DNA from: Pseudomonas mendocina
GTDB lineage: Bacteria; Pseudomonadota; Gammaproteobacteria; Pseudomonadales; Pseudomonadaceae
Direction: 5' to 3'
DNA length: 64,000 bases
NCBI RefSeq assembly: GCF_003008615.1
Contig: NZ_CP027657.1
Location: 2,604,001 to 2,668,000, forward strand
The position numbers and the translations under genes are program-made. Under the pieces are notes generated by a model. It was not told the DNA's origin. It worked only from the letters and a program-made list of their open reading frames with translations, and made no database searches. Positions 8,237 through 22,480 of the stretch are shown here, piece by piece (position 1 is the first letter of the stretch; every line of letters begins with the position of its first letter).

Positions 8237-8521
8237 ATGGTTACGCACTACAAAGTCTCTGGCCACCTCGCCTGTGGCTCGCACGGTGAAAAACTGCCGT
8301 CCACCACCGAGCTGGGCAAGGTCAAATGCCGCAACTGCCGCAAGACCGAAGCCTTCACCGAAGCCCGCCGCAATGCCCGTAACGCCGCACGCCGTGCCGC
8401 CCGCCGCGAGAAGGCCGCCCGTGCTGTCAACGACTGGCGTACCTCCTGGGAAGCGCGCCTGACCGCCTTGCCGGGCCGTCAGCGATTGCCGCGTGGTTTC
8501 GGCGACCAGGCATTCGTCTAG
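8237..8521 (+). CDS. Small basic protein with zinc-ribbon-like Cys/His pairs, unknown function
   Basis: 94 residues preceded by a good ribosome-binding sequence (aaggaga, 9 bases before the ATG). The N-terminal third has C13-x2-H16 and C31-x2-C34, a spacing compatible with one zinc ribbon. It is followed by a very Arg/Ala-rich helix (residues about 46-65, R-N-A-R-N-A-A-R-R-A-A-R-R) that would carry strong positive charge and may contact nucleic acid. I do not recognise a characterised homologue. It stands alone between a minus-strand methyltransferase and an MFS gene. Coding is supported by the RBS, the Cys/His pairs and the lack of competing frames. Confidence 0.7.
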   Translation: MVTHYKVSGHLACGSHGEKLPSTTELGKVKCRNCRKTEAFTEARRNARNAARRAARREKAARAVNDWRTSWEARLTALPGRQRLPRGFGDQAFV

Positions 8522-8740
8522 CTGGGTGATGATCGTGGGAGGTACATCAGTCGCGACCCCAAGTCGCTCTGGTTGCCACTGAGGCGCCTCCCGCGATTCG
8601 CCTCTACGATTTCTCCACGCCTCCTGGGGTTCGATCTGCGCAACAGGCTGTTCAGACGTTTGCCCCGCAGCGGTACCTTGACGTAGATTGGCCGGCTCAC
8701 CTCGACCGGCACTGGCCGGTCATGCCTCGAGGTTTCTGCC

Positions 8741-9976
8741 GTGTCCGCTGTTTCCGTCTACCGCCTTCCTGGTTTCCTGCCGTTTCTCGCTGCACGTCTG
8801 ATGGCGGTGTTCGCCATGCAGATCCAGGCCATCGTCGTCGCCTGGCAGGTCTACGACATTACCCGCGATCCGCTGTCGCTGGCCTATGTCGGCCTGGCCC
8901 AGTTCATCCCGATGCTGGTGCTGCTGATGCCGGCCGGCGACTTGATCGACCGCTTCGACCGCAAGCTGATCCTGATGCTCAGCTGGCTGGTGGAGGCTGT
9001 CTGTGCCGGGGCCTTGCTGTGGCTGTCGCTGAGCGAGGCGCCTGTGACCTGGTACTACGGCGTGCTGGTTCTTTACGGCAGTGCACGGGCCTTCACCGGA
9101 CCGGCGCTGTCGAGCCTGCTACCGCAGATCGTGCCGCGCGAGCGCCTGGCCGCGGCCATCGCCGCCAACAGCATGATCATGCGCGGCGCGACCATTTCCG
9201 GCCCGGTGATTGGTGGCGGCCTGTATGCCATCGGTGGTGGCGGACTGACCTACTCGGCCTGCCTGTTCGGCTTCCTCGCCGGGGCTGCGCTGCTGCCGCT
9301 GGTGCCGGTGCGCTACGCCGAGAAAATGCAGGCGCTGGAGTCCACCGCCTGGGCACGCTTTACCGCTGGGATCAGCTTCATTCGTTCGCGCCCGATCATC
9401 CTGGGCACCATCTCGCTGGATCTGTTCGCCGTGCTGCTTGGCGGCGTGGTGGCGCTGTTGCCGATCTACGCCCAGGAAGTGCTGGAAGTCGGGCCGACTG
9501 GCCTCGGCCTGTTGCGCAGTGCCATGGCCATCGGCGAGGTATCGGTCGGCCTGTACCTGAGCATGAAACCGTTCAACCGCCATGTCGGCCTGGTGATGTT
9601 CGGCGCGGTGGCGCTGTTTGGTGTGGCCAACCTGGTGTTCGCCCTGTCCAGCCTGTTCTGGCTGTCGTTCGCTGCACTGATGGTGGCGGGCGGCGCGGAC
9701 ATGGTGAGCATGTACATCCGCTCATCCTTGGTGCAATTCTCCACGCCGGACGCCATGCGTGGCCGGGTCAACGCGGTGAACATGCTGTTCATCGGCTCTT
9801 CCAACGAGCTGGGCGAATTCCGCGCCGGCACCAGCGCCGCCTGGTTCGGCGTGGTGCCGGCGGCGTTGCTGGGCTGCGCCTGTACGCTGCTGGTGACCGG
9901 CGGCTGGATGCTCGGCTTCAAGAGCCTGCGCAAGGTCGACCGCTTCGAGGATGCTTCGCCGGGCAAGGTGGGCTAG
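8741..9976 (+). CDS. MFS transporter, EntS/MFS_3-like
   Basis: 411 residues with about 12 membrane segments; the D-L-I-D-R-F-D-R-K loop after the second segment and the R-G-R-V-N-A-V-N block before the last pair are typical of the MFS_3 group, which includes the enterobactin exporter EntS and various multidrug exporters. Translation is taken to start at GTG 8741, with a gagg sequence about 9 bases upstream; no better ATG precedes the first membrane segment. No siderophore genes are nearby, so a siderophore role is not supported. Function: export of an unknown small molecule. Confidence 0.87.
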   Translation: MSAVSVYRLPGFLPFLAARLMAVFAMQIQAIVVAWQVYDITRDPLSLAYVGLAQFIPMLVLLMPAGDLIDRFDRKLILMLSWLVEAVCAGALLWLSLSEAPVTWYYGVLVLYGSARAFTGPALSSLLPQIVPRERLAAAIAANSMIMRGATISGPVIGGGLYAIGGGGLTYSACLFGFLAGAALLPLVPVRYAEKMQALESTAWARFTAGISFIRSRPIILGTISLDLFAVLLGGVVALLPIYAQEVLEVGPTGLGLLRSAMAIGEVSVGLYLSMKPFNRHVGLVMFGAVALFGVANLVFALSSLFWLSFAALMVAGGADMVSMYIRSSLVQFSTPDAMRGRVNAVNMLFIGSSNELGEFRAGTSAAWFGVVPAALLGCACTLLVTGGWMLGFKSLRKVDRFEDASPGKVG

Positions 9977-10110: not shown

Positions 10111-11295
10111 CTACCCCAACCGCAACAGCGGCCTGAGCTTCAAGCCAAGCACGGTGCCGACCAGGCAGAACAGGCCGAACACCCAGCCCGACGCTGCGCC
10201 GGCCATCACCCCGGACAGCAGCGTGCCCACGGTGCAGCCTAGGGCCAGCAGGCTGCCCCAGCCCAGCAGCACGCCGCCGAGCAGGCCGCGTAGCCAGTCA
10301 CATGGCGCACCGCCGCTGGGGCGGAAATCGCCTGCGGCCAGGGCGCTGGCCCAGGCCGCTATTACCAGGCCAATCACGAACAATCCGTTGTTCGACAGCA
10401 GGGTTTCCTTGACCACCGTGGCACAGCCGGAAAAACCGTCGAGTCCTTCCAGGCGTTCGGGTAGCCAGCCCAGGCTATCGGCGCTGGTGCGCGCCAGGCT
10501 GCCCAGCTCGGCTGTCACCCCCAGCGGCGCGACGCGAAAATAGGCCAGCACCGCCAACCCGCCGATCAGCACGCCGCCGACCCAGGTCGGCCAACGCGCG
10601 CCAAACAGCAGCGGCCACAGTCCCTTGGGCTCGGCTGCTGTGCCCGCCTGGCGATAACGCAGCAGCCAGGCGGCCAGCGCGCCGAGCAGGATCAGTTGCA
10701 AGAGCAGCGAACCGCCGTAACCGAACGTGCCCGGCAGCCAGAGCACGGGAGCTTCCTGCAGGGCGGCCAGGTACAGCGGGTTCCAGCTGAGAAAACCGAG
10801 GGCGAAACCGAGCAGTGCACCGGCCAGCGTTGCCAGTGAGGCGAAGTGGCCTTCGCCTAGGCGATACAGGTGCGCGCTGATACACGAGCCGGAGATCGCC
10901 ATGCCGAGGCCGAACACCGTGGCGGCCAGCGCCAACACCCAGCTCAGTGGGCCGATATGGGCGTCCGGTGGCAGGCGCCCACCGCTGGGATCGGGCAGAA
11001 AGGCACCGAACACCGCGTGATAACCAATGGTGCCTACCGCCAGGGCGGCGAGCAGACCGAGCAGGCCGTCCGGTACGCGGCGTTCGACGAAGTCGCGGGT
11101 GATGCAGAAGAAGCAGAAACGTGAGCGTTGCAACAACAGGCCGAACAGCGCGCCACTGGCCAGCGAATAGCTGAAGGCGCGGCCCTGGTTGCTGCCATCG
11201 GAAAGTTGCCAGATGACGGCGAGCAGGGCGACGGTCAGCAGGCCGGCGCAGGCGCTAGGCAGCGTGGCGCGAGGGGAGAGTGTATTGGCTGTCAT
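10111..11295 (-). CDS. YeeE/YedE-family sulfur-compound (thiosulfate-type) permease
   Basis: 394 residues, highly hydrophobic, about 9-11 membrane segments. It carries the family's conserved cysteine segments: R-S-R-F-C-F-F-C near residues 58-65, G-S-C-I-S-A-H-L-Y-R-L-G-E-G in the middle, G-F-S-G-C-A near 285, and A-L-G-C-T-V-G-T-L-L-S-G near the C-terminus. In the characterised thiosulfate transporter TsuA of this family such cysteines line the path of the ion. The next gene in the same direction upstream is a secreted rhodanese (thiosulfate sulfurtransferase), fitting uptake or handling of thiosulfate. There are about 250 bases of repeat sequence between them, so co-transcription is uncertain. 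Confidence 0.88.
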   Translation of the reverse strand: MTANTLSPRATLPSACAGLLTVALLAVIWQLSDGSNQGRAFSYSLASGALFGLLLQRSRFCFFCITRDFVERRVPDGLLGLLAALAVGTIGYHAVFGAFLPDPSGGRLPPDAHIGPLSWVLALAATVFGLGMAISGSCISAHLYRLGEGHFASLATLAGALLGFALGFLSWNPLYLAALQEAPVLWLPGTFGYGGSLLLQLILLGALAAWLLRYRQAGTAAEPKGLWPLLFGARWPTWVGGVLIGGLAVLAYFRVAPLGVTAELGSLARTSADSLGWLPERLEGLDGFSGCATVVKETLLSNNGLFVIGLVIAAWASALAAGDFRPSGGAPCDWLRGLLGGVLLGWGSLLALGCTVGTLLSGVMAGAASGWVFGLFCLVGTVLGLKLRPLLRLG

Positions 11296-11547
11296 GGGTT
11301 GTCCTTGCCCGACGAAAGCGGCCCTGGGCGTCAGGCCAGGGCCGTGTTTTGCGTGACTGACGCTTGCTCGGTAGGAGCGGCTTCAGCCGCGAAATTCGCG
11401 GATAAATCCGCTCCTACAGAACAGCCTCAAGGTAGGGTGCGCCGTGCGCACCGCAGCGCCAGCGCTGCCGTCATTGGTGCGCGCGGCCTAGGCAGCCCCG
11501 CGACACCCTACAAAAGCCATCCGTGCAAGACGGCAGTCTTAGAGGGC
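11296..11547. repeat. REP-like repeats between rhodanese and YeeE-type genes
   Basis: Roughly 250 bases without a gene. It includes a hairpin (gtaggagcggcttcagccgcg at 11371-11391, followed by gcggataaatccgctcctac to about 11418) and a copy of gtagggtgcgccgtgcgcacc (about 11433-11453). The hairpin could slow or protect a read-through transcript from the rhodanese gene into the permease gene; no T-run terminator is present. Confidence 0.65.
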
Positions 11548-12474
11548 TTACTTGCCGCCCCAGACGGTACCGGCCACGTTCACCACCGGCACGCCCACGG
11601 CATTGCCGTACTCGGTCCAGGAGCCGTCGTAGTTGCGCACGTCGTAACCGAGGATTTTCTTCAGGGCGAACCAGGTGTGGCTGGAGCGCTCGCCGATGCG
11701 GCAATAGGTGATGATCGGCTTGCTGCCATCGATACCTACTGCGCCGTAGACCTTCTTCAGCTCTTCAGCCGATTTGAAGGTGCCGTCGGCGGCTACCGCC
11801 TGGCCCCAGGGCACGTTCACCGCGCCGGGCACGTGGCCGGCACGCACGGCCAGCTCCTGCACGCCCTGCGGGGCGAAGACTTTGCCGTTGTATTCGTCCG
11901 GCGAACGGATATCCACCAACTGCACGTCGCTGCGCTTCTCGGCAGCGGCGAGTACGTCCGGGAGGAAGGCGCGCAGATCCTTGTTGGCGGCCTGCACCGT
12001 GACGTTGCCGGTTTTCGGCGTGCTGGCGCGACTGTCCAGGGTGCGGCCTTCGGCTTCCCACTTGGCGCGACCGCCATCGAGCAGCTTGACGTTGTCGACA
12101 CCGTACACATCGAACACCCAGGCGCCCCAGGCGGCGAACCAGTTGTTGTTGTCGCCGTAGAGAATGGTGGTGCTGTCGTCATTCACCCCGGCCTTGCGCA
12201 GCAGTTGCTGGAAGGCTTCCTGGCTGGCGATGTCACGGCGTACCGGGTCGACCAGATCGCTGTGCCAGGCGAAATTCACCGCACCGGGGATATGCCCGCG
12301 TTCATAGACGCCGGGCACCACACTGACTTCGATGATGCGTACCTTGGGGTCATTCAGGTTCTTTTCCAGCCAGTCGGTGCTGACCAGGTATTCGCTGGCG
12401 GCATGCGCCGTGACCGTTTGCAGCAGAGTGGCGGCGGCCAGCAGGCTGGCGCCGAGAAGGGTCTTGATCGTCAT
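11548..12474 (-). CDS. Secreted two-domain rhodanese (thiosulfate sulfurtransferase)
   Basis: 308 residues with a signal peptide (cleavage likely after A-H-A, about residue 25), so the enzyme should be periplasmic. Two rhodanese domains follow: the N-terminal domain has G-H-I-P-G-A-V-N and a D-G-D-N-type non-catalytic loop, the C-terminal one has the active loop C-R-I-G-E-R with catalytic Cys258. It would transfer sulfane sulfur from thiosulfate or a thiol persulfide to an acceptor such as cyanide or a thiol. Neighbours are a sulfur-compound permease downstream and an SfnB-like enzyme plus sulfonate-type binding protein upstream, all on the minus strand. Periplasmic location beside a thiosulfate-type permease is the notable point. 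Confidence 0.92.
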   Translation of the reverse strand: MTIKTLLGASLLAAATLLQTVTAHAASEYLVSTDWLEKNLNDPKVRIIEVSVVPGVYERGHIPGAVNFAWHSDLVDPVRRDIASQEAFQQLLRKAGVNDDSTTILYGDNNNWFAAWGAWVFDVYGVDNVKLLDGGRAKWEAEGRTLDSRASTPKTGNVTVQAANKDLRAFLPDVLAAAEKRSDVQLVDIRSPDEYNGKVFAPQGVQELAVRAGHVPGAVNVPWGQAVAADGTFKSAEELKKVYGAVGIDGSKPIITYCRIGERSSHTWFALKKILGYDVRNYDGSWTEYGNAVGVPVVNVAGTVWGGK

Positions 12475-12577
12475 GGTTGCGACCTCTTGAGAGTTGGCAG
12501 TTGTGCGGCGGAGCCGCCTTCATCGCTGTGGAACGTCGTGATGTCCTTGCATGGTTCCTGTGGCGTTAACCTCCTTG

Positions 12578-13807
12578 TCAGTTGTAGAGCGACGGTTGCG
12601 GGCCCTGGCCGCTGAGCAGCCAGTGCCCGAGGTCGCGCACCTTGTAGTCGATGGGATCGTGCAGGCTGTGCACGCGCACGTTGCGCCAGAAACGGTCGAA
12701 GCCGTAGCGCGAGCTGGTGGCGCGGGCGCCCATGGCTTCGAAGATCTGGCTGGTGATATCGAGGGCGGCGCGTACCGCCACCACCTTGGCCTCGCTGATG
12801 GCCAGCGCCACTTCGGCGCGTTCGGCGGCGGTCAGTGCCGGTTTTTCCCAGGCTGCTTGCAGGCGCTGGGCGGCGTGTTCGGCCAGGGGCAGGGCGCTGC
12901 GATAACGCAGCCACAGCTCGCCGTAGCGCTGCTGGATGAATGGATCGTCGCTGGCATTGGCCACGCCCGATGCTGGCCAGGCGCGGCTCTGTTCGCGGGT
13001 GTAACGCAGCGCTGCGTCCAGCGCACCCTGGGCGTTGCCCAGGTAGAGCTGGGTGAGGATCAGCTGCGACAGGCAGGCACGCAGGGTGGTGCGCGGGCTG
13101 GGGCCGACCGGGCCGAGCAGCTCGCTGGCGTCGACGAATACCTGCTCGAACTGCACCGTGCCGCTGTCGGTCTGGCGTTGGCCGAAACCGTCCCAGTCGC
13201 TGTTCACCGCCAGCCCTTCGCGTTGGCTGGGCAGGACGATGAATACACGGTCCTCCGGCTTCTTGCTGCGTTGCACGCCGATCACCAGTGCGTCGGCGCC
13301 GAGTGCGCCGGAGCAGAACGATTTGCTGCCGTTGAGCTCGTAATGTTCCTCGCGCGGGGCGAGCGTCAGGCCGTTGTCGCGACCGTTGGTGGCGTTGCCC
13401 CAGAACCAGCGCTCCTGCACCGTGCGCGTCAGCCAGTGGCGCTGCTGATCGGGGTTGCCGAACAGCAGGAGGGTGGCCACTTGCAGGTGCTGGAAGGCGA
13501 AAAGGTGGGCCAGTGAGCTGTCCACCGCCGCCAGGTAGCGGGTGATGCGGTAGATCTCCGGCCAGGCTACGCCCTGGCCACCGTACTGCTGCGGCACGGC
13601 CAGGGTCAGCAGGCCGCTGTCGCGCACCAATTCGCGCTCGGCCTGCGGGCTGCCGCCTGCCCTGTCCCGTTCCACCGCGCTGGCCGCCAGGCGCCTGGCC
13701 AGGCGCTCGACCTTGGCCGTGCGGCTGCCGAAGTCCACGGGGAACAGGTGCGCGGCGAACAGCGGTTCGTCGCGCAGGCTGGGATGCAGGCGGGCCTCAA
13801 GGCTCAT
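12578..13807 (-). CDS. SfnB-like acyl-CoA-dehydrogenase-fold flavin-dependent sulfur-acquisition oxidoreductase
   Basis: 409 residues with the acyl-CoA dehydrogenase fold: N-terminal helices, a middle beta domain (W-F-W-G-N-A-T-N-G near residue 130), and a C-terminal four-helix part. Members of this branch (SfnB, and the DszC/SfnC-like enzymes) are linked in Pseudomonas to use of sulfones, sulfonates and other organosulfur compounds and are thought to use reduced flavin. The ATG (13805-13807) overlaps the stop of the upstream binding-protein gene as ATGA, so both are made from one transcript. An upstream extension to 13984 would lie inside that gene and is rejected. A true acyl-CoA dehydrogenase role is unlikely given the context. 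Confidence 0.85.
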   Translation of the reverse strand: MSLEARLHPSLRDEPLFAAHLFPVDFGSRTAKVERLARRLAASAVERDRAGGSPQAERELVRDSGLLTLAVPQQYGGQGVAWPEIYRITRYLAAVDSSLAHLFAFQHLQVATLLLFGNPDQQRHWLTRTVQERWFWGNATNGRDNGLTLAPREEHYELNGSKSFCSGALGADALVIGVQRSKKPEDRVFIVLPSQREGLAVNSDWDGFGQRQTDSGTVQFEQVFVDASELLGPVGPSPRTTLRACLSQLILTQLYLGNAQGALDAALRYTREQSRAWPASGVANASDDPFIQQRYGELWLRYRSALPLAEHAAQRLQAAWEKPALTAAERAEVALAISEAKVVAVRAALDITSQIFEAMGARATSSRYGFDRFWRNVRVHSLHDPIDYKVRDLGHWLLSGQGPQPSLYN

Positions 13808-14763
13808 TGCGGGCTCCAGATGCTCACTTCGCGTGCATCCACCGAGGTTGGCAGCAGGCTGGCGCCGTAAAAGGCATCGGCGATCTTCTGCTGCTCGGCG
13901 AGGCTGTCCGGCTGTACCAGGCGCACCTGATAGCTGCGTTTGGCGTTGGCCTTCTCGACGATGGCCGGGTCGAGATTGCCCCACAGCGGGCCGAGGATTT
14001 CAGCGGCCTGGCGCGGGTTGGCGCGCAGCCAGTCGCCGGTCTTCACCAACTCGGCGAACACGGTCTGCAGCACTTGCGGGTGGCTCTTGGCGAAGGTGGC
14101 GCTGGTCAGGTAGTAACGCTGGTAGTCGGCCAGGCCCTTGCCGTCGGCAAGGATGCGGGTCGGCAACTGTTGCTGGGCGCCGCTGAGGAAGGGCTCCCAG
14201 GTGACCCAGGCGTCCACCTTGCGGTTTTCGAAGGCGGCGCGGCCGTCGGCCGGGGTCAGGTAGGCGGGTTCGATGTCGCTGAACTTCAGACCAGCCTTGT
14301 TCAGTGCGGCGATCAGCAGGTAGTGCACGCCGGCTGCCTTGGTCACGGCGATCTTCTTGCCCTTGAGGTCGGCCAGCGTTTTGATCGGCGAATCCTCGCG
14401 CACGATGATCGCCTGGGCGCTGGGGGAGGGCGCTTCCTGGGCGAAATAGGCGAGGTCGGCGCCGGCGGCCTGGGCGAACACCGGCACGGTGTCGGCGACA
14501 TCGGCGGACAGGTCGATATTGCCGACGTTGAGTGCCTCCAGCAGCGGCTGGCCGTTGGGGAATTCGTGCCAACTGACAGTGATGTCCTGATCGGCCAGTG
14601 CCTTCTCCAGGGTGCCCTGGCTCTTCAGCAGGCTGATCAGCGTGGAGGACTTCTGGTAGCCGATGCGCAGTTGCTCGGCGGCTTCGGTGAGCGGGGCGAC
14701 GAGCAGACCGATGGCCAGCGAGGCGGCGATCAGTGTGCTGCGCTTGGAATGGATCTTGGACAT
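13804..14763 (-). CDS. Sulfonate-type ABC transporter periplasmic binding protein (SsuA-like)
   Basis: 319 residues with a signal peptide (cleavage near residue 28, after T-E-A). The mature start L-R-I-G-Y-Q-K-S-S and the later G-K-K-I-A-V-T-K-A-A-G and A-W-V-T-W-E-P-F blocks match SsuA/TauA-type aliphatic sulfonate binding proteins; it also closely resembles SsuA at 34208. ATG 14763, with gagag about 7 bases upstream, is preferred to the GTG at 14784. No permease or ATPase gene follows; instead the next gene is the SfnB-like enzyme. It may feed the permease/ATPase pair at 17928-19486 or one elsewhere. Confidence 0.9.
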   Translation of the reverse strand: MSKIHSKRSTLIAASLAIGLLVAPLTEAAEQLRIGYQKSSTLISLLKSQGTLEKALADQDITVSWHEFPNGQPLLEALNVGNIDLSADVADTVPVFAQAAGADLAYFAQEAPSPSAQAIIVREDSPIKTLADLKGKKIAVTKAAGVHYLLIAALNKAGLKFSDIEPAYLTPADGRAAFENRKVDAWVTWEPFLSGAQQQLPTRILADGKGLADYQRYYLTSATFAKSHPQVLQTVFAELVKTGDWLRANPRQAAEILGPLWGNLDPAIVEKANAKRSYQVRLVQPDSLAEQQKIADAFYGASLLPTSVDAREVSIWSPQ

Positions 14764-19544: not shown

Positions 19545-19900
19545 CCGCACGCGCAGGCTTTTGTAGCCCGGATGAAATCCGCGGGCTTTGTCAGGGTGAG
19601 GCTCAGAGGTTATTACGGGTATGAAACCGAACGTTTCATTTGGCTGAAGGCGCTCTACCCAGGCTACATGCTGACGTAGGGCGGCCTTGCTCGCGAAGCG
19701 AGCAGCCCGCCAGACCGTGCTGAGATTAGATCCTGCGACCGACACATCATCGGCGTACTGCTTCCGAGCGGCCGGCGTCCCGGTACGCCCTACGCGCTGT
19801 TCCTACCCTTGGCATGGTGGACAAGCTTCGCGTTGTCCACCCTACGCGGTGGGTATTTCAGCGTAGGGTGGATGGCGCTTTTTTCATCCACCGCTGGGCG
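19545..19900. repeat. Array of different dispersed repeats
   Basis: No gene is seen between the terminator and the AT-rich gene at 19979. The stretch packs four repeat families side by side: gtagcccggatgaaatccg (about 19563), a tagggcggcc...ggtacgcccta element (about 19677-19795, related to 15030-15135), a ggtggacaagcttcgcgttg element (about 19816-19841), and a ggtggatg...catccacc hairpin (about 19868-19893). Such accumulation marks a spot that tolerates insertions. The remaining bases to 19978 show nothing recognisable. Confidence 0.65.
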
Positions 19901-19978
19901 AGGTTGTCCGGGCTGCTTGCTGTTGATGCTCTGTAGGTTGCGAGGACAGTAAATAAATCTGTCCCTTTTCTATGTTCT

Positions 19979-21793
19979 CTAAATAACTGGTTTGGTCATG
20001 ATTGTGGGTAAATTGGATTGCTCAGGTGATGCCTGATAAAAATCCAATACAACATCAACGCCCATCTTGTATGAGAGAAGCAGATCTCCAACTGTACACA
20101 CAGGGCCGTCTTTTGCACTTTCAGCGCTCGCGCATATAGCCATGTAGCAGACAGCAATATAATCCAAGAGGTGCGTTACAAGCTGCGGACGTATTTTTTC
20201 ATAGTGGCCAGTATGAGCAATGCGGTTTCTTAAAAGATATATGCGCCTGAGCTGCCTCGAGACGTCAGTCTGCGCCTTCTCTATACGCTTAACAACCAAG
20301 GCGTTTATTTTCAACTCTTCGTGAATAGAGGATATCTTATATTTGAGGTGTTCTAGATCACCCAGGCTATTGAATAGTTCTATTGCGGCTTGCTCACTGC
20401 CAAGTATTGAATATATATCTAGCTCGGAGGTCGTCGACGCAAACCTGTCCGTCGGTGAAAGCATACATGCCTTCACTTGTGGCGTTGTTGCAATATCATT
20501 TGCCGACAAAATATCGCGAAGATAGAAAGCGCGGCGACGAATTGAAGAGACTGCATATATCAGAGGTACGTAGTTCATTACTGGAGTAAGTATTCCACCC
20601 CCTCTGGCATCAAACAGAGACTCAAGAGATATCCACAGATTTAGCAATTTTTGCTCTATCGAGATTGACTCTCTCGCAAGCCTCAAATATCTTAGCGATC
20701 TCCCTAGCCTATCTCTGCCCTCATCATTTAGTGCGAGCATGGCTCGTCGAATTGACGTATTCGTTCCTTTGAAATACGTTCCACCTTCGGATGCAAGGAA
20801 ACCCACGAGGCGCTCGATATTTATGACTTTTACATGAGTTAGCGGGCCATTTCGCGATGCTGCAATGCAACTATGTAGAACATGTATTCTTGGGTTCAGA
20901 TCAAGTGCGCTATATGCATCTATGAATTTATCTAGACGCTCCTTAACTCGCCAAGCAGCGCTTACATAGTCGGTAGCTTCTACGGAAGCTTTTGCGATTA
21001 CATTTGGTGTGTCATTCTTTCTGAATTTATCGAGGTCGCCGTCTTTGATGAAGTCTGGTAATTCTTCTGCGAACTGAAAGTCCGGGTCATCTGTGGTTTC
21101 CAGAAACCCTTGGGGGCTTACCACCCGAAGACCGTAATAGACATCGTAGTTGGACGTTCTACTTTTTAGCTTTTCTGTGATTTCATCGAACTGCTCAGAA
21201 AAATTTCGTTGGCCGTAGTTTTGGATGCGTGTGAAATACTCCGCCCTATTGAACAGGTATGTGGGTGAGTAGCCTCTATTCAATAGCTGCGTAGTATATA
21301 GTCCGGTTAAAGCGTAGATCCTATCAGTGATTCTCTTTTTGTGTGTGAGATCGACCTCGCCAACAATAGACTCTCTTAATTCAGCGACTAGCTTGGCTTC
21401 ATATTCACTCTCTCGTGAATAGATGGCCCGGCAAATTACCGTCAGCTTTTGTAGCCATTTTTCACCTAGGGGGGTATCTCCCATAGTCGCAAAAAACTTC
21501 TGCAGTATGGAGTAGTAAGGGGAGAACACCTCTCGCGCAATTTCATCGTGGTCAAATGTGCTTTGTACTTCTTCAATTGCAGCCCTTAGATTAGCGGCAT
21601 TCTTTTCATTGACTCGATACATCGATATAAGATCTGCCGCTTCCCGAGAGCTGCTGATTACGTTCATTAGTCGTGACTGAAAGAAGTGTGGTGTGTACAT
21701 GCTTAGTTTTTCTAAGTACGTCTCTACGAAAAATCTCGGCCTGAAATCCACAATAGGAAGTTTTGCCCAAGTTGCTTGCGATAGGTATTTCAC
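19979..21793 (-). CDS. Large AT-rich protein with C-terminal HEPN (Apea-like) domain; candidate defence protein
   Basis: 604 residues, GTG start at 21793 with an in-frame TAA directly before it and a ggga sequence about 7 bases upstream. I recognise no enzyme family over the N-terminal 400 residues. The C-terminal part has W-I-S-L-E-S-L-F-D (about residues 385-400) and, after a long helical stretch, R-N-R-I-A-H-T-G at 522-529 (bases 20207-20230). R-x4-H in this setting is the catalytic signature of HEPN RNases, and the sequence around it resembles the Apea-like HEPN group seen in abortive-infection proteins. Base composition is much lower in GC than all neighbours and codon use differs, a sign of recent transfer. 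It stands alone, with no toxin-antitoxin partner visible. RNase or antiphage activity is inference; no signal peptide or membrane segment is evident. Confidence 0.75.
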   Translation of the reverse strand: MKYLSQATWAKLPIVDFRPRFFVETYLEKLSMYTPHFFQSRLMNVISSSREAADLISMYRVNEKNAANLRAAIEEVQSTFDHDEIAREVFSPYYSILQKFFATMGDTPLGEKWLQKLTVICRAIYSRESEYEAKLVAELRESIVGEVDLTHKKRITDRIYALTGLYTTQLLNRGYSPTYLFNRAEYFTRIQNYGQRNFSEQFDEITEKLKSRTSNYDVYYGLRVVSPQGFLETTDDPDFQFAEELPDFIKDGDLDKFRKNDTPNVIAKASVEATDYVSAAWRVKERLDKFIDAYSALDLNPRIHVLHSCIAASRNGPLTHVKVINIERLVGFLASEGGTYFKGTNTSIRRAMLALNDEGRDRLGRSLRYLRLARESISIEQKLLNLWISLESLFDARGGGILTPVMNYVPLIYAVSSIRRRAFYLRDILSANDIATTPQVKACMLSPTDRFASTTSELDIYSILGSEQAAIELFNSLGDLEHLKYKISSIHEELKINALVVKRIEKAQTDVSRQLRRIYLLRNRIAHTGHYEKIRPQLVTHLLDYIAVCYMAICASAESAKDGPVCTVGDLLLSYKMGVDVVLDFYQASPEQSNLPTIMTKPVI

Positions 21794-22480
21794 TTAACCA
21801 TCCCGAAATGGAAACTAACTATTAACTACTCGACATTCATGTCGCGTTTCCACGCGAAACCTGTCGCATAACCTTCCTTGTCGTCCTACAAGTCCTTGTT
21901 TCGCTTGAGGGCAGTCGCATGAAACGCGACAACCTCTGGGGCGAAACACGACAGAGATAACGGCAAGCCCAATCTGCTGGATTACTGCATCAGCAGAACC
22001 AAGCCAGAAACCTATTCCATCCACCGCTACCCTGTCCACGCTTCATGGGCAAAATGCCATCGCGGTTGTTTTCTCGCGCCAGAGGCGGCAGTCCAGACCT
22101 TCCCAAACCCACCCACAAATTCTGTTAACAGCGCTGTGGATAACCTTTGCAAAAGCGCTTCGCGCCTAGCATTCAAGCGGGCCTCGGCAGGCCGCTCAAC
22201 TTTTGTCCAATGACGCTGCACCGTCGTTATCGCCAGGCGGAATATCACTTTTAATCAATCACTTGGCTCATGTTTTCAACAGCGGGGCAGGACAGAGGCC
22301 TGTTGCCGGATGTCGTGCACAGAATCTGGGGAAAGCGCTGTGGATAAGATGCGGGAAAACGCGTCCAGACCAGGCGGGTCAAGGGCTGCGCCTGGCTGGT
22401 GATTTTTCGTGCGGTGTCGCGCGGCTGTCATGTTTCATGGCTATAGTGACCGGTCGATTTGCAGCCGCTGGAGCCTCTAG
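21794..22480. other. 687-base non-coding segment with inverted repeats and two DnaA-box matches
   Basis: No credible gene on either strand. Next to the HEPN gene lies an 11-base perfect inverted repeat, tgtcgcgtttc (21840-21850) and gaaacgcgaca (21921-21931), with further related pieces (gcgaaacctgtcgc, ttgtttcgctt, gcgaaacacgacag) up to 21954. Further on, tgtggataa, identical to the DnaA-box consensus on the other strand, occurs at 22135-22143 and 22339-22347, each preceded by agcgc. The final part must hold the chrA promoter. The first 160 bases are AT-rich like the HEPN gene; the rest approaches the chromosomal average. Confidence 0.6.

Follow-up and report, generated by a model that had tools for sequence, protein, structure and literature searches.

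The window analysed here is a stretch of 64,000 nucleotides from Pseudomonas mendocina, and the gene under study, apeA, stands out in it by its low GC content. The gene has 44% GC, and 43% at third codon positions (GC3) as against 82-91% across the five neighbouring genes compared, which agrees with the earlier observation that it is poorer in GC than its surroundings; when the whole window was scanned, all 1-kb blocks outside 20001-22000 had at least 58% GC. The coordinates, the 604 codons, the GTG start and the R522-x4-H527 motif given in the original prediction were all correct, and the strand, on which it was silent, is minus (Table 1). The GTG start is supported by the alignment, because the apeA homologues begin at the same residue.

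Table 1. Features of the apeA locus in the window and YfbU-family genes at related loci
Feature	Position	Strand	Details and basis
apeA, 604 codons	19979..21793	minus	GTG start at 21793, stop at 19979; ORF, PADLOC ApeA and PDB 9hxn
C-terminal part, residues 355-604, with predicted HEPN-type RNase site	19979..20731	minus	HEPN by homology to ApeA
R522-N-R-I-A-H527 codons, predicted catalytic motif	20213..20230	minus	Conservation in 90/92 rows; Ala at the R522 position in Ec2ApeA of 9hxe-9hxh
GYSPTYL codons, residues 174-180	21254..21274	minus	Highest conservation within the N-terminal half
Approximate insert relative to G012	19925..22011		blastn to L024 and L025
YfbU gene	L037:7362-7922	same strand as apeA	PF03887
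YfbU gene	L039:7427-7969	same strand as apeA	PF03887
YfbU gene	L040:7419-7964	same strand as apeA	PF03887
YfbU gene	L041:7436-7990 (Pseudomonas sp. TH15)	same strand as apeA	PF03887
YfbU gene	L062:916-1476	same strand as apeA	tblastn 1.3e-83, ORF of 186 codons

Among the PADLOC profiles, ApeA (PDLC02157) matched the protein at 9.1e-102 and 339.6 bits, with residues 1-555 aligned to positions 1-554 of the 601 in the profile. A sequence search of solved structures returned Ec1ApeA of E. coli (PDB 9hxn) at 3.3e-94, again over residues 1-555, together with Ec2, Ec3 and Ec4 ApeA at 5.9e-14, 1.3e-5 and 0.0045, and the solved ApeA chains align with the window protein almost end to end. The PADLOC and Ec1ApeA matches bear out the proposal of an Apea-type HEPN protein, and the N-terminal half, which had been called unassignable, turned out to be covered by the PADLOC ApeA model; the Pfam and NCBIfam profiles gave no match to the protein at E<=10. 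At the loci that we viewed, the E. coli orthologues carry the RefSeq name 'HEPN family anti-phage protein ApeA', and P0087 of E. coli (370 member sequences), named in part 'HEPN family anti-phage protein', resembles the 9hxn target by eye over the printed alignment rows. A further PADLOC match, to JukB at 7.6e-5, raised the alternative that the gene encodes a HEPN protein of another system, such as Juk, which merely looks like ApeA. The JukB match falls on the C-terminal motif, spans residues 470-529 and only positions 162-221 of the 323 in the profile, and reaches 20.3 bits against the 339.6 of the ApeA profile match over residues 1-555, to which the nearly end-to-end alignment of the solved ApeA chains can be added; JukB membership was rejected as the worse fit, and we regard such an origin as extremely improbable. 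By its sequence, the window gene is a full-length member of ApeA, a known one-protein antiphage defence family, and thus a divergent new member of a family that is itself already known. ApeA was reportedly described by Gao et al. in 2020, and therefore the novelty implied by the original prediction falls away. Passages of PMC10952713 and PMC7699616 likewise credit ApeA to Gao et al. 2020.

The R-N-R-I-A-H sequence had been put forward as the one RNase motif of the protein, but we found five matches to R-x4-6-H, at residues 302, 314, 522, 524 and 535. Since 1856 of 2000 shuffles of the apeA protein contained at least one such match, the pattern alone is no evidence; R-[NDH]-x3-H occurred in 162 of the 2000. 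We aligned the window protein with all 91 matches from the homologue search and observed that R522, N523 and H527, and likewise R517 and Y519, are unchanged in 90 of the 92 rows, the remaining two being gapped there. W387 and E391 are present in 90 rows and E380 in 88, with Asp in three, and the R302/H307 and R314/H320 pairs are variable. Within this alignment, conservation lifts the putative active site R522-x4-H527 above chance. Furthermore, Ala replaces the R522 equivalent in the Ec2ApeA chain of PDB 9hxe-9hxh, indicating that the depositors altered that residue. Residues 361-400 and 501-540 form conserved blocks of the alignment, and conservation is poor in the N-terminal blocks 61-160 and 221-260. 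In GYSPTYL, a candidate sensor or interface segment, S176, Y179 and L180 are found in 91 of the 92 rows (one gapped) and G174, Y175, P177 and T178 in 83-90. AlphaFold2 modelled the whole protein confidently, with a pLDDT of 88.6, and likewise residues 355-604 alone, all helical, with a pLDDT of 90.8. Foldseek and VIA-align searches with the whole model and with residues 355-604 gave no convincing match, the 9hx entries being absent among the rows shown, and the predicted HEPN fold of the C-terminal domain is assigned by homology to ApeA rather than by structure.

Comparison with related genomes by blastn revealed how the gene came to its site. In G012, the match that stops at window position 19924 runs directly into the match from 22012, which represents an empty site, and in G008 about 3.5 kb of other DNA separates the left match, which stops at 19921, from the right one, which starts at 21922. 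With G008 as the guide, the left edge of the insert lies possibly as far in as 19965 and the right edge at 21922; a 47-base piece (19919-19965) also matches within the intervening DNA of G008. The insert in the window measures about 1.96-2.09 kb, and apeA is the only gene inside it. Its left junction falls within a repeat at 19770-19970, which calls for caution on that edge. To the left of the insert we classified genes of an NMT1/THI5-type ABC transporter (binding protein, permease and ATPase) and an OprD porin, and to the right a chromate transporter gene; none of these classified flanking genes is a mobility gene, and ARAGORN found no tRNA in the 64-kb window. An MFS gene is found to the left of the site in both G012 and G008 and its window orthologue lies at 8735-9967, therefore the DNA on the left-hand side of the insert has changed too. 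A presence/absence comparison, proposed with the original prediction, was carried out and showed that the gene is not in all related strains, relatives occurring in three of 298 genomes of the genus, its own included (the others are G216 at 41% and the distant G202 at 27%), and a match in three of the 369 genomes of the class sample, again counting its own. Thus, apeA was horizontally acquired and inserted between resident genes, and the original view of an acquired, self-contained ApeA-type HEPN gene is upheld by the ApeA matches, the empty site in G012, the count of three in 298 genomes and the E. coli orthologues.

We also made several observations on the site and the genus. The left-edge repeat has the core GTAGGGTGGA with its complement, and it is matched in part at 12 further places in the genome. 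At the position of apeA, G008 carries cargo (L025:4378-7855) of mostly 38-55% GC, with genes for a zinc-ribbon protein, a PF24838 (8xMP) membrane protein and a 185-residue protein to which no Pfam profile matched; the region is a variable cargo site, which perhaps holds another defence module there. The window segment 22109-22414 is matched twice in G008, at L025:8042-8348 and 9580-9885, flanking a 280-residue ORF (8488-9330), which makes this a further insertion, bordered by a duplication. Upstream of the chromate transporter gene, TGTGGATAA is found twice within a 48-base repeat, at 22135-22143 and 22339-22347, 204 bases apart, and the first copy is also present in G012; we take TGTGGATAA to be the reverse of the DnaA-box consensus TTATCCACA. 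The same genus has another, distant ApeA type, in G202 (L035:9559-11310, 27% identical, GC 0.40).

Given its surroundings, apeA might be a decaying defence gene, carried along silently since a past transfer with its frame still intact. In a scan that covers one promoter type only, we found four promoter-like sites against a shuffle mean of 3.4, which is no excess, and the sole own-strand site upstream of apeA lies about 600 nt away; the lack of such a site close upstream would fit decay, as would the lack of a mobility gene among the flanking genes classified, for the gene may be stranded. However, the scan knows a single type of promoter, and the 604 codons run without stop or frameshift and keep all invariant ApeA residues, which argues for recent selection. 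We therefore hold decay to be very unlikely.

When compared with the solved members of the family, the window protein is most like Ec1ApeA, with which it shares the R-N-x3-H site and GYSPTYL over the aligned residues 1-555, although the identity is only about 35%. In the three E. coli apeA loci a MobQ relaxase gene adjoins apeA and an integrase gene is near two of them, unlike in the window, whose classified flanks are without a mobility gene. Ec2ApeA (PDB 9hxb, 9hxd-9hxi) resembles the window protein in overall length and in the C-terminal RRIY..RN...H block but is far more distant (E=5.9e-14), and GYSPTYL is not kept in it. The entries 9hxn, 9hxi, 9hxb and 9hxm hold ten chains each and 9hxe-9hxh 40 chains in four entries, and the chain counts of ApeA entries also vary, with two in 9hxd and 12 in 9hxj.

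Taken as a whole, our analysis suggests that apeA is probably a horizontally acquired one-protein abortive-infection defence that encodes an oligomeric, cue-activated HEPN RNase. Going by the family, ApeA would form a homo-oligomer in which the C-terminal HEPN domains pair to make the RNase site, and it would be inactive at rest until triggered by an infection cue, in whose sensing the N-terminal half, GYSPTYL included, may take part. A preprint title cited in PMC13405049 names deoxydinucleotides as activating ApeA, and hence the products of DNA breakdown during infection would be the likely cue, with infection raising deoxydinucleotides that would act on ApeA. Such a signal is plausible because PMC11706625 (2025) places deoxydinucleotide-specific nucleases near defence genes. 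Once switched on, the paired HEPN domains would cut cellular RNA, by which translation and phage growth would stop. Alternatively, the protein may be ApeA by descent and yet have another RNA target or infection cue than the E. coli members, its sensor half having diverged. The low identity to Ec1ApeA, the poor conservation of the N-terminal blocks against the conserved blocks 361-400 and 501-540, and the deep position of the window's branch in the tree would be consistent with this, but GYSPTYL and the HEPN site are common to the window protein and Ec1ApeA, and we consider such a divergence in function unlikely compared with an RNase working as the E. coli members would.

We examined the genes next to apeA in eight closer relatives with readable context (L037, L038, L039, L040, L041, L042, L054 and L062) and found that in five of them a YfbU-family gene lies directly upstream of apeA on the same strand, after a gap of 13-63 nt (Table 1). 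PF03887 scores for the YfbU genes of L037, L039, L040 and L041 were 7e-16 to 4e-20, and E. coli YfbU (PDB 4lr3) is only distantly related to the linked proteins (E=0.001). The branch formed by these five is like the window in having an orthologous full-length ApeA (36-47% identical to the A1 query in L037, L039, L040 and L041, and 49% to P0001 in L062) and unlike it in having the YfbU gene. The genomes G679, G681, G682 and G216, which carry linked genes and were searched whole, gave one YfbU match each. YfbU was absent from the available DNA around apeA in L038, L042 and L054, the upstream flank being 1.9 kb in L042 and 1.5 kb in L054, and the Aliivibrio genome of L042 (G683) has one YfbU match, at 6e-8, on another contig. 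In L038 (Vreelandella utahensis), dGTPase (3e-51) and RmrA (6e-148) genes by PADLOC lie at 11283-14355, within about 5 kb of the apeA relative, and judged by these genes the neighbourhood is likely a defence island. The search that gave 1e-94 or better in four other genomes returned no YfbU match in the window's own genome, and the best tblastn match in the window flanks had an E of 1.4 over 16 residues; with transporter and porin genes on its flanks, apeA is indeed without a visible partner gene, as the original prediction held. Ec1ApeA is like the window in this respect, YfbU being absent within 6 kb of apeA in the three E. coli loci (best tblastn E 0.36). Near the distant or partial relatives L003/L035, L043-L045, L047, L048, L056, L057 and L063-L072, no YfbU was found by tblastn at E<=1e-3, in flanks mostly of at most 1.5 kb and of 16-19 kb in L035 and L043-L045, with L035 lacking YfbU in 19 kb.

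An independent check on a wider set of matches agrees with the linkage. Twenty-two of the 91 ApeA matches are on a contig equal in size to one from the best 120 of 437 YfbU matches, as against a mean of 0.63 and a maximum of 4 in 2000 control trials with the sizes jittered by 1-200 bases, and three of 23 further ApeA matches also pair with YfbU-bearing contigs of equal size. Paired matches name the same organism for Cupriavidus alkaliphilus, Comamonas testosteroni, Methylophilus sp., Burkholderia cenocepacia and Paraburkholderia caribensis, and we infer that equal-sized ApeA and YfbU contigs are one contig. As the marks come from the best 120 of the 437 YfbU matches, an unmarked ApeA row does not mean absence; P0079 (TH15) is unmarked although L041 has YfbU. 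In a careful 22-row tree, the linked loci, four being known at that stage, fall into one 9-row clade (support 100/99) with L039 inside, and the window protein pairs with P0001 (97/100) outside this YfbU clade. In a quick 90-row tree, 24 of the 25 rows marked as linked are in one 40-row clade (support 1.0) that is without the window, and among the 50 rows outside it L039 is the sole marked one. The two trees disagree on L039, placing it inside and outside the YfbU clade respectively.

The ApeA family may hold a branch in which apeA and YfbU form a two-gene unit, alongside solo members, among them the window protein and Ec1ApeA, a reading to which we give slightly less than an even chance. A literature search, with most subscription journals outside its reach, found no report of the apeA-YfbU pair, a weak sign that the pair is new. 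Should YfbU be a true partner, it would sense for, tune or restrain the HEPN RNase, and the solo members would show that the nuclease manages without it. YfbU, a family of unknown function, would then gain a functional context, which fits the statement of PMC2646832 that E. coli yfbU is required for mazEF-dependent death after DNA damage. The window gene itself is ordinary and of modest interest, yet as a divergent Pseudomonas ApeA that stands alone at a site variable between relatives it offers a clean case for single-gene function. The YfbU link, present in relatives and absent from the window, is of higher interest; it is the part that could reach beyond one genome, because the YfbU family might then be tested next to a defence nuclease with relatives of solved structure.
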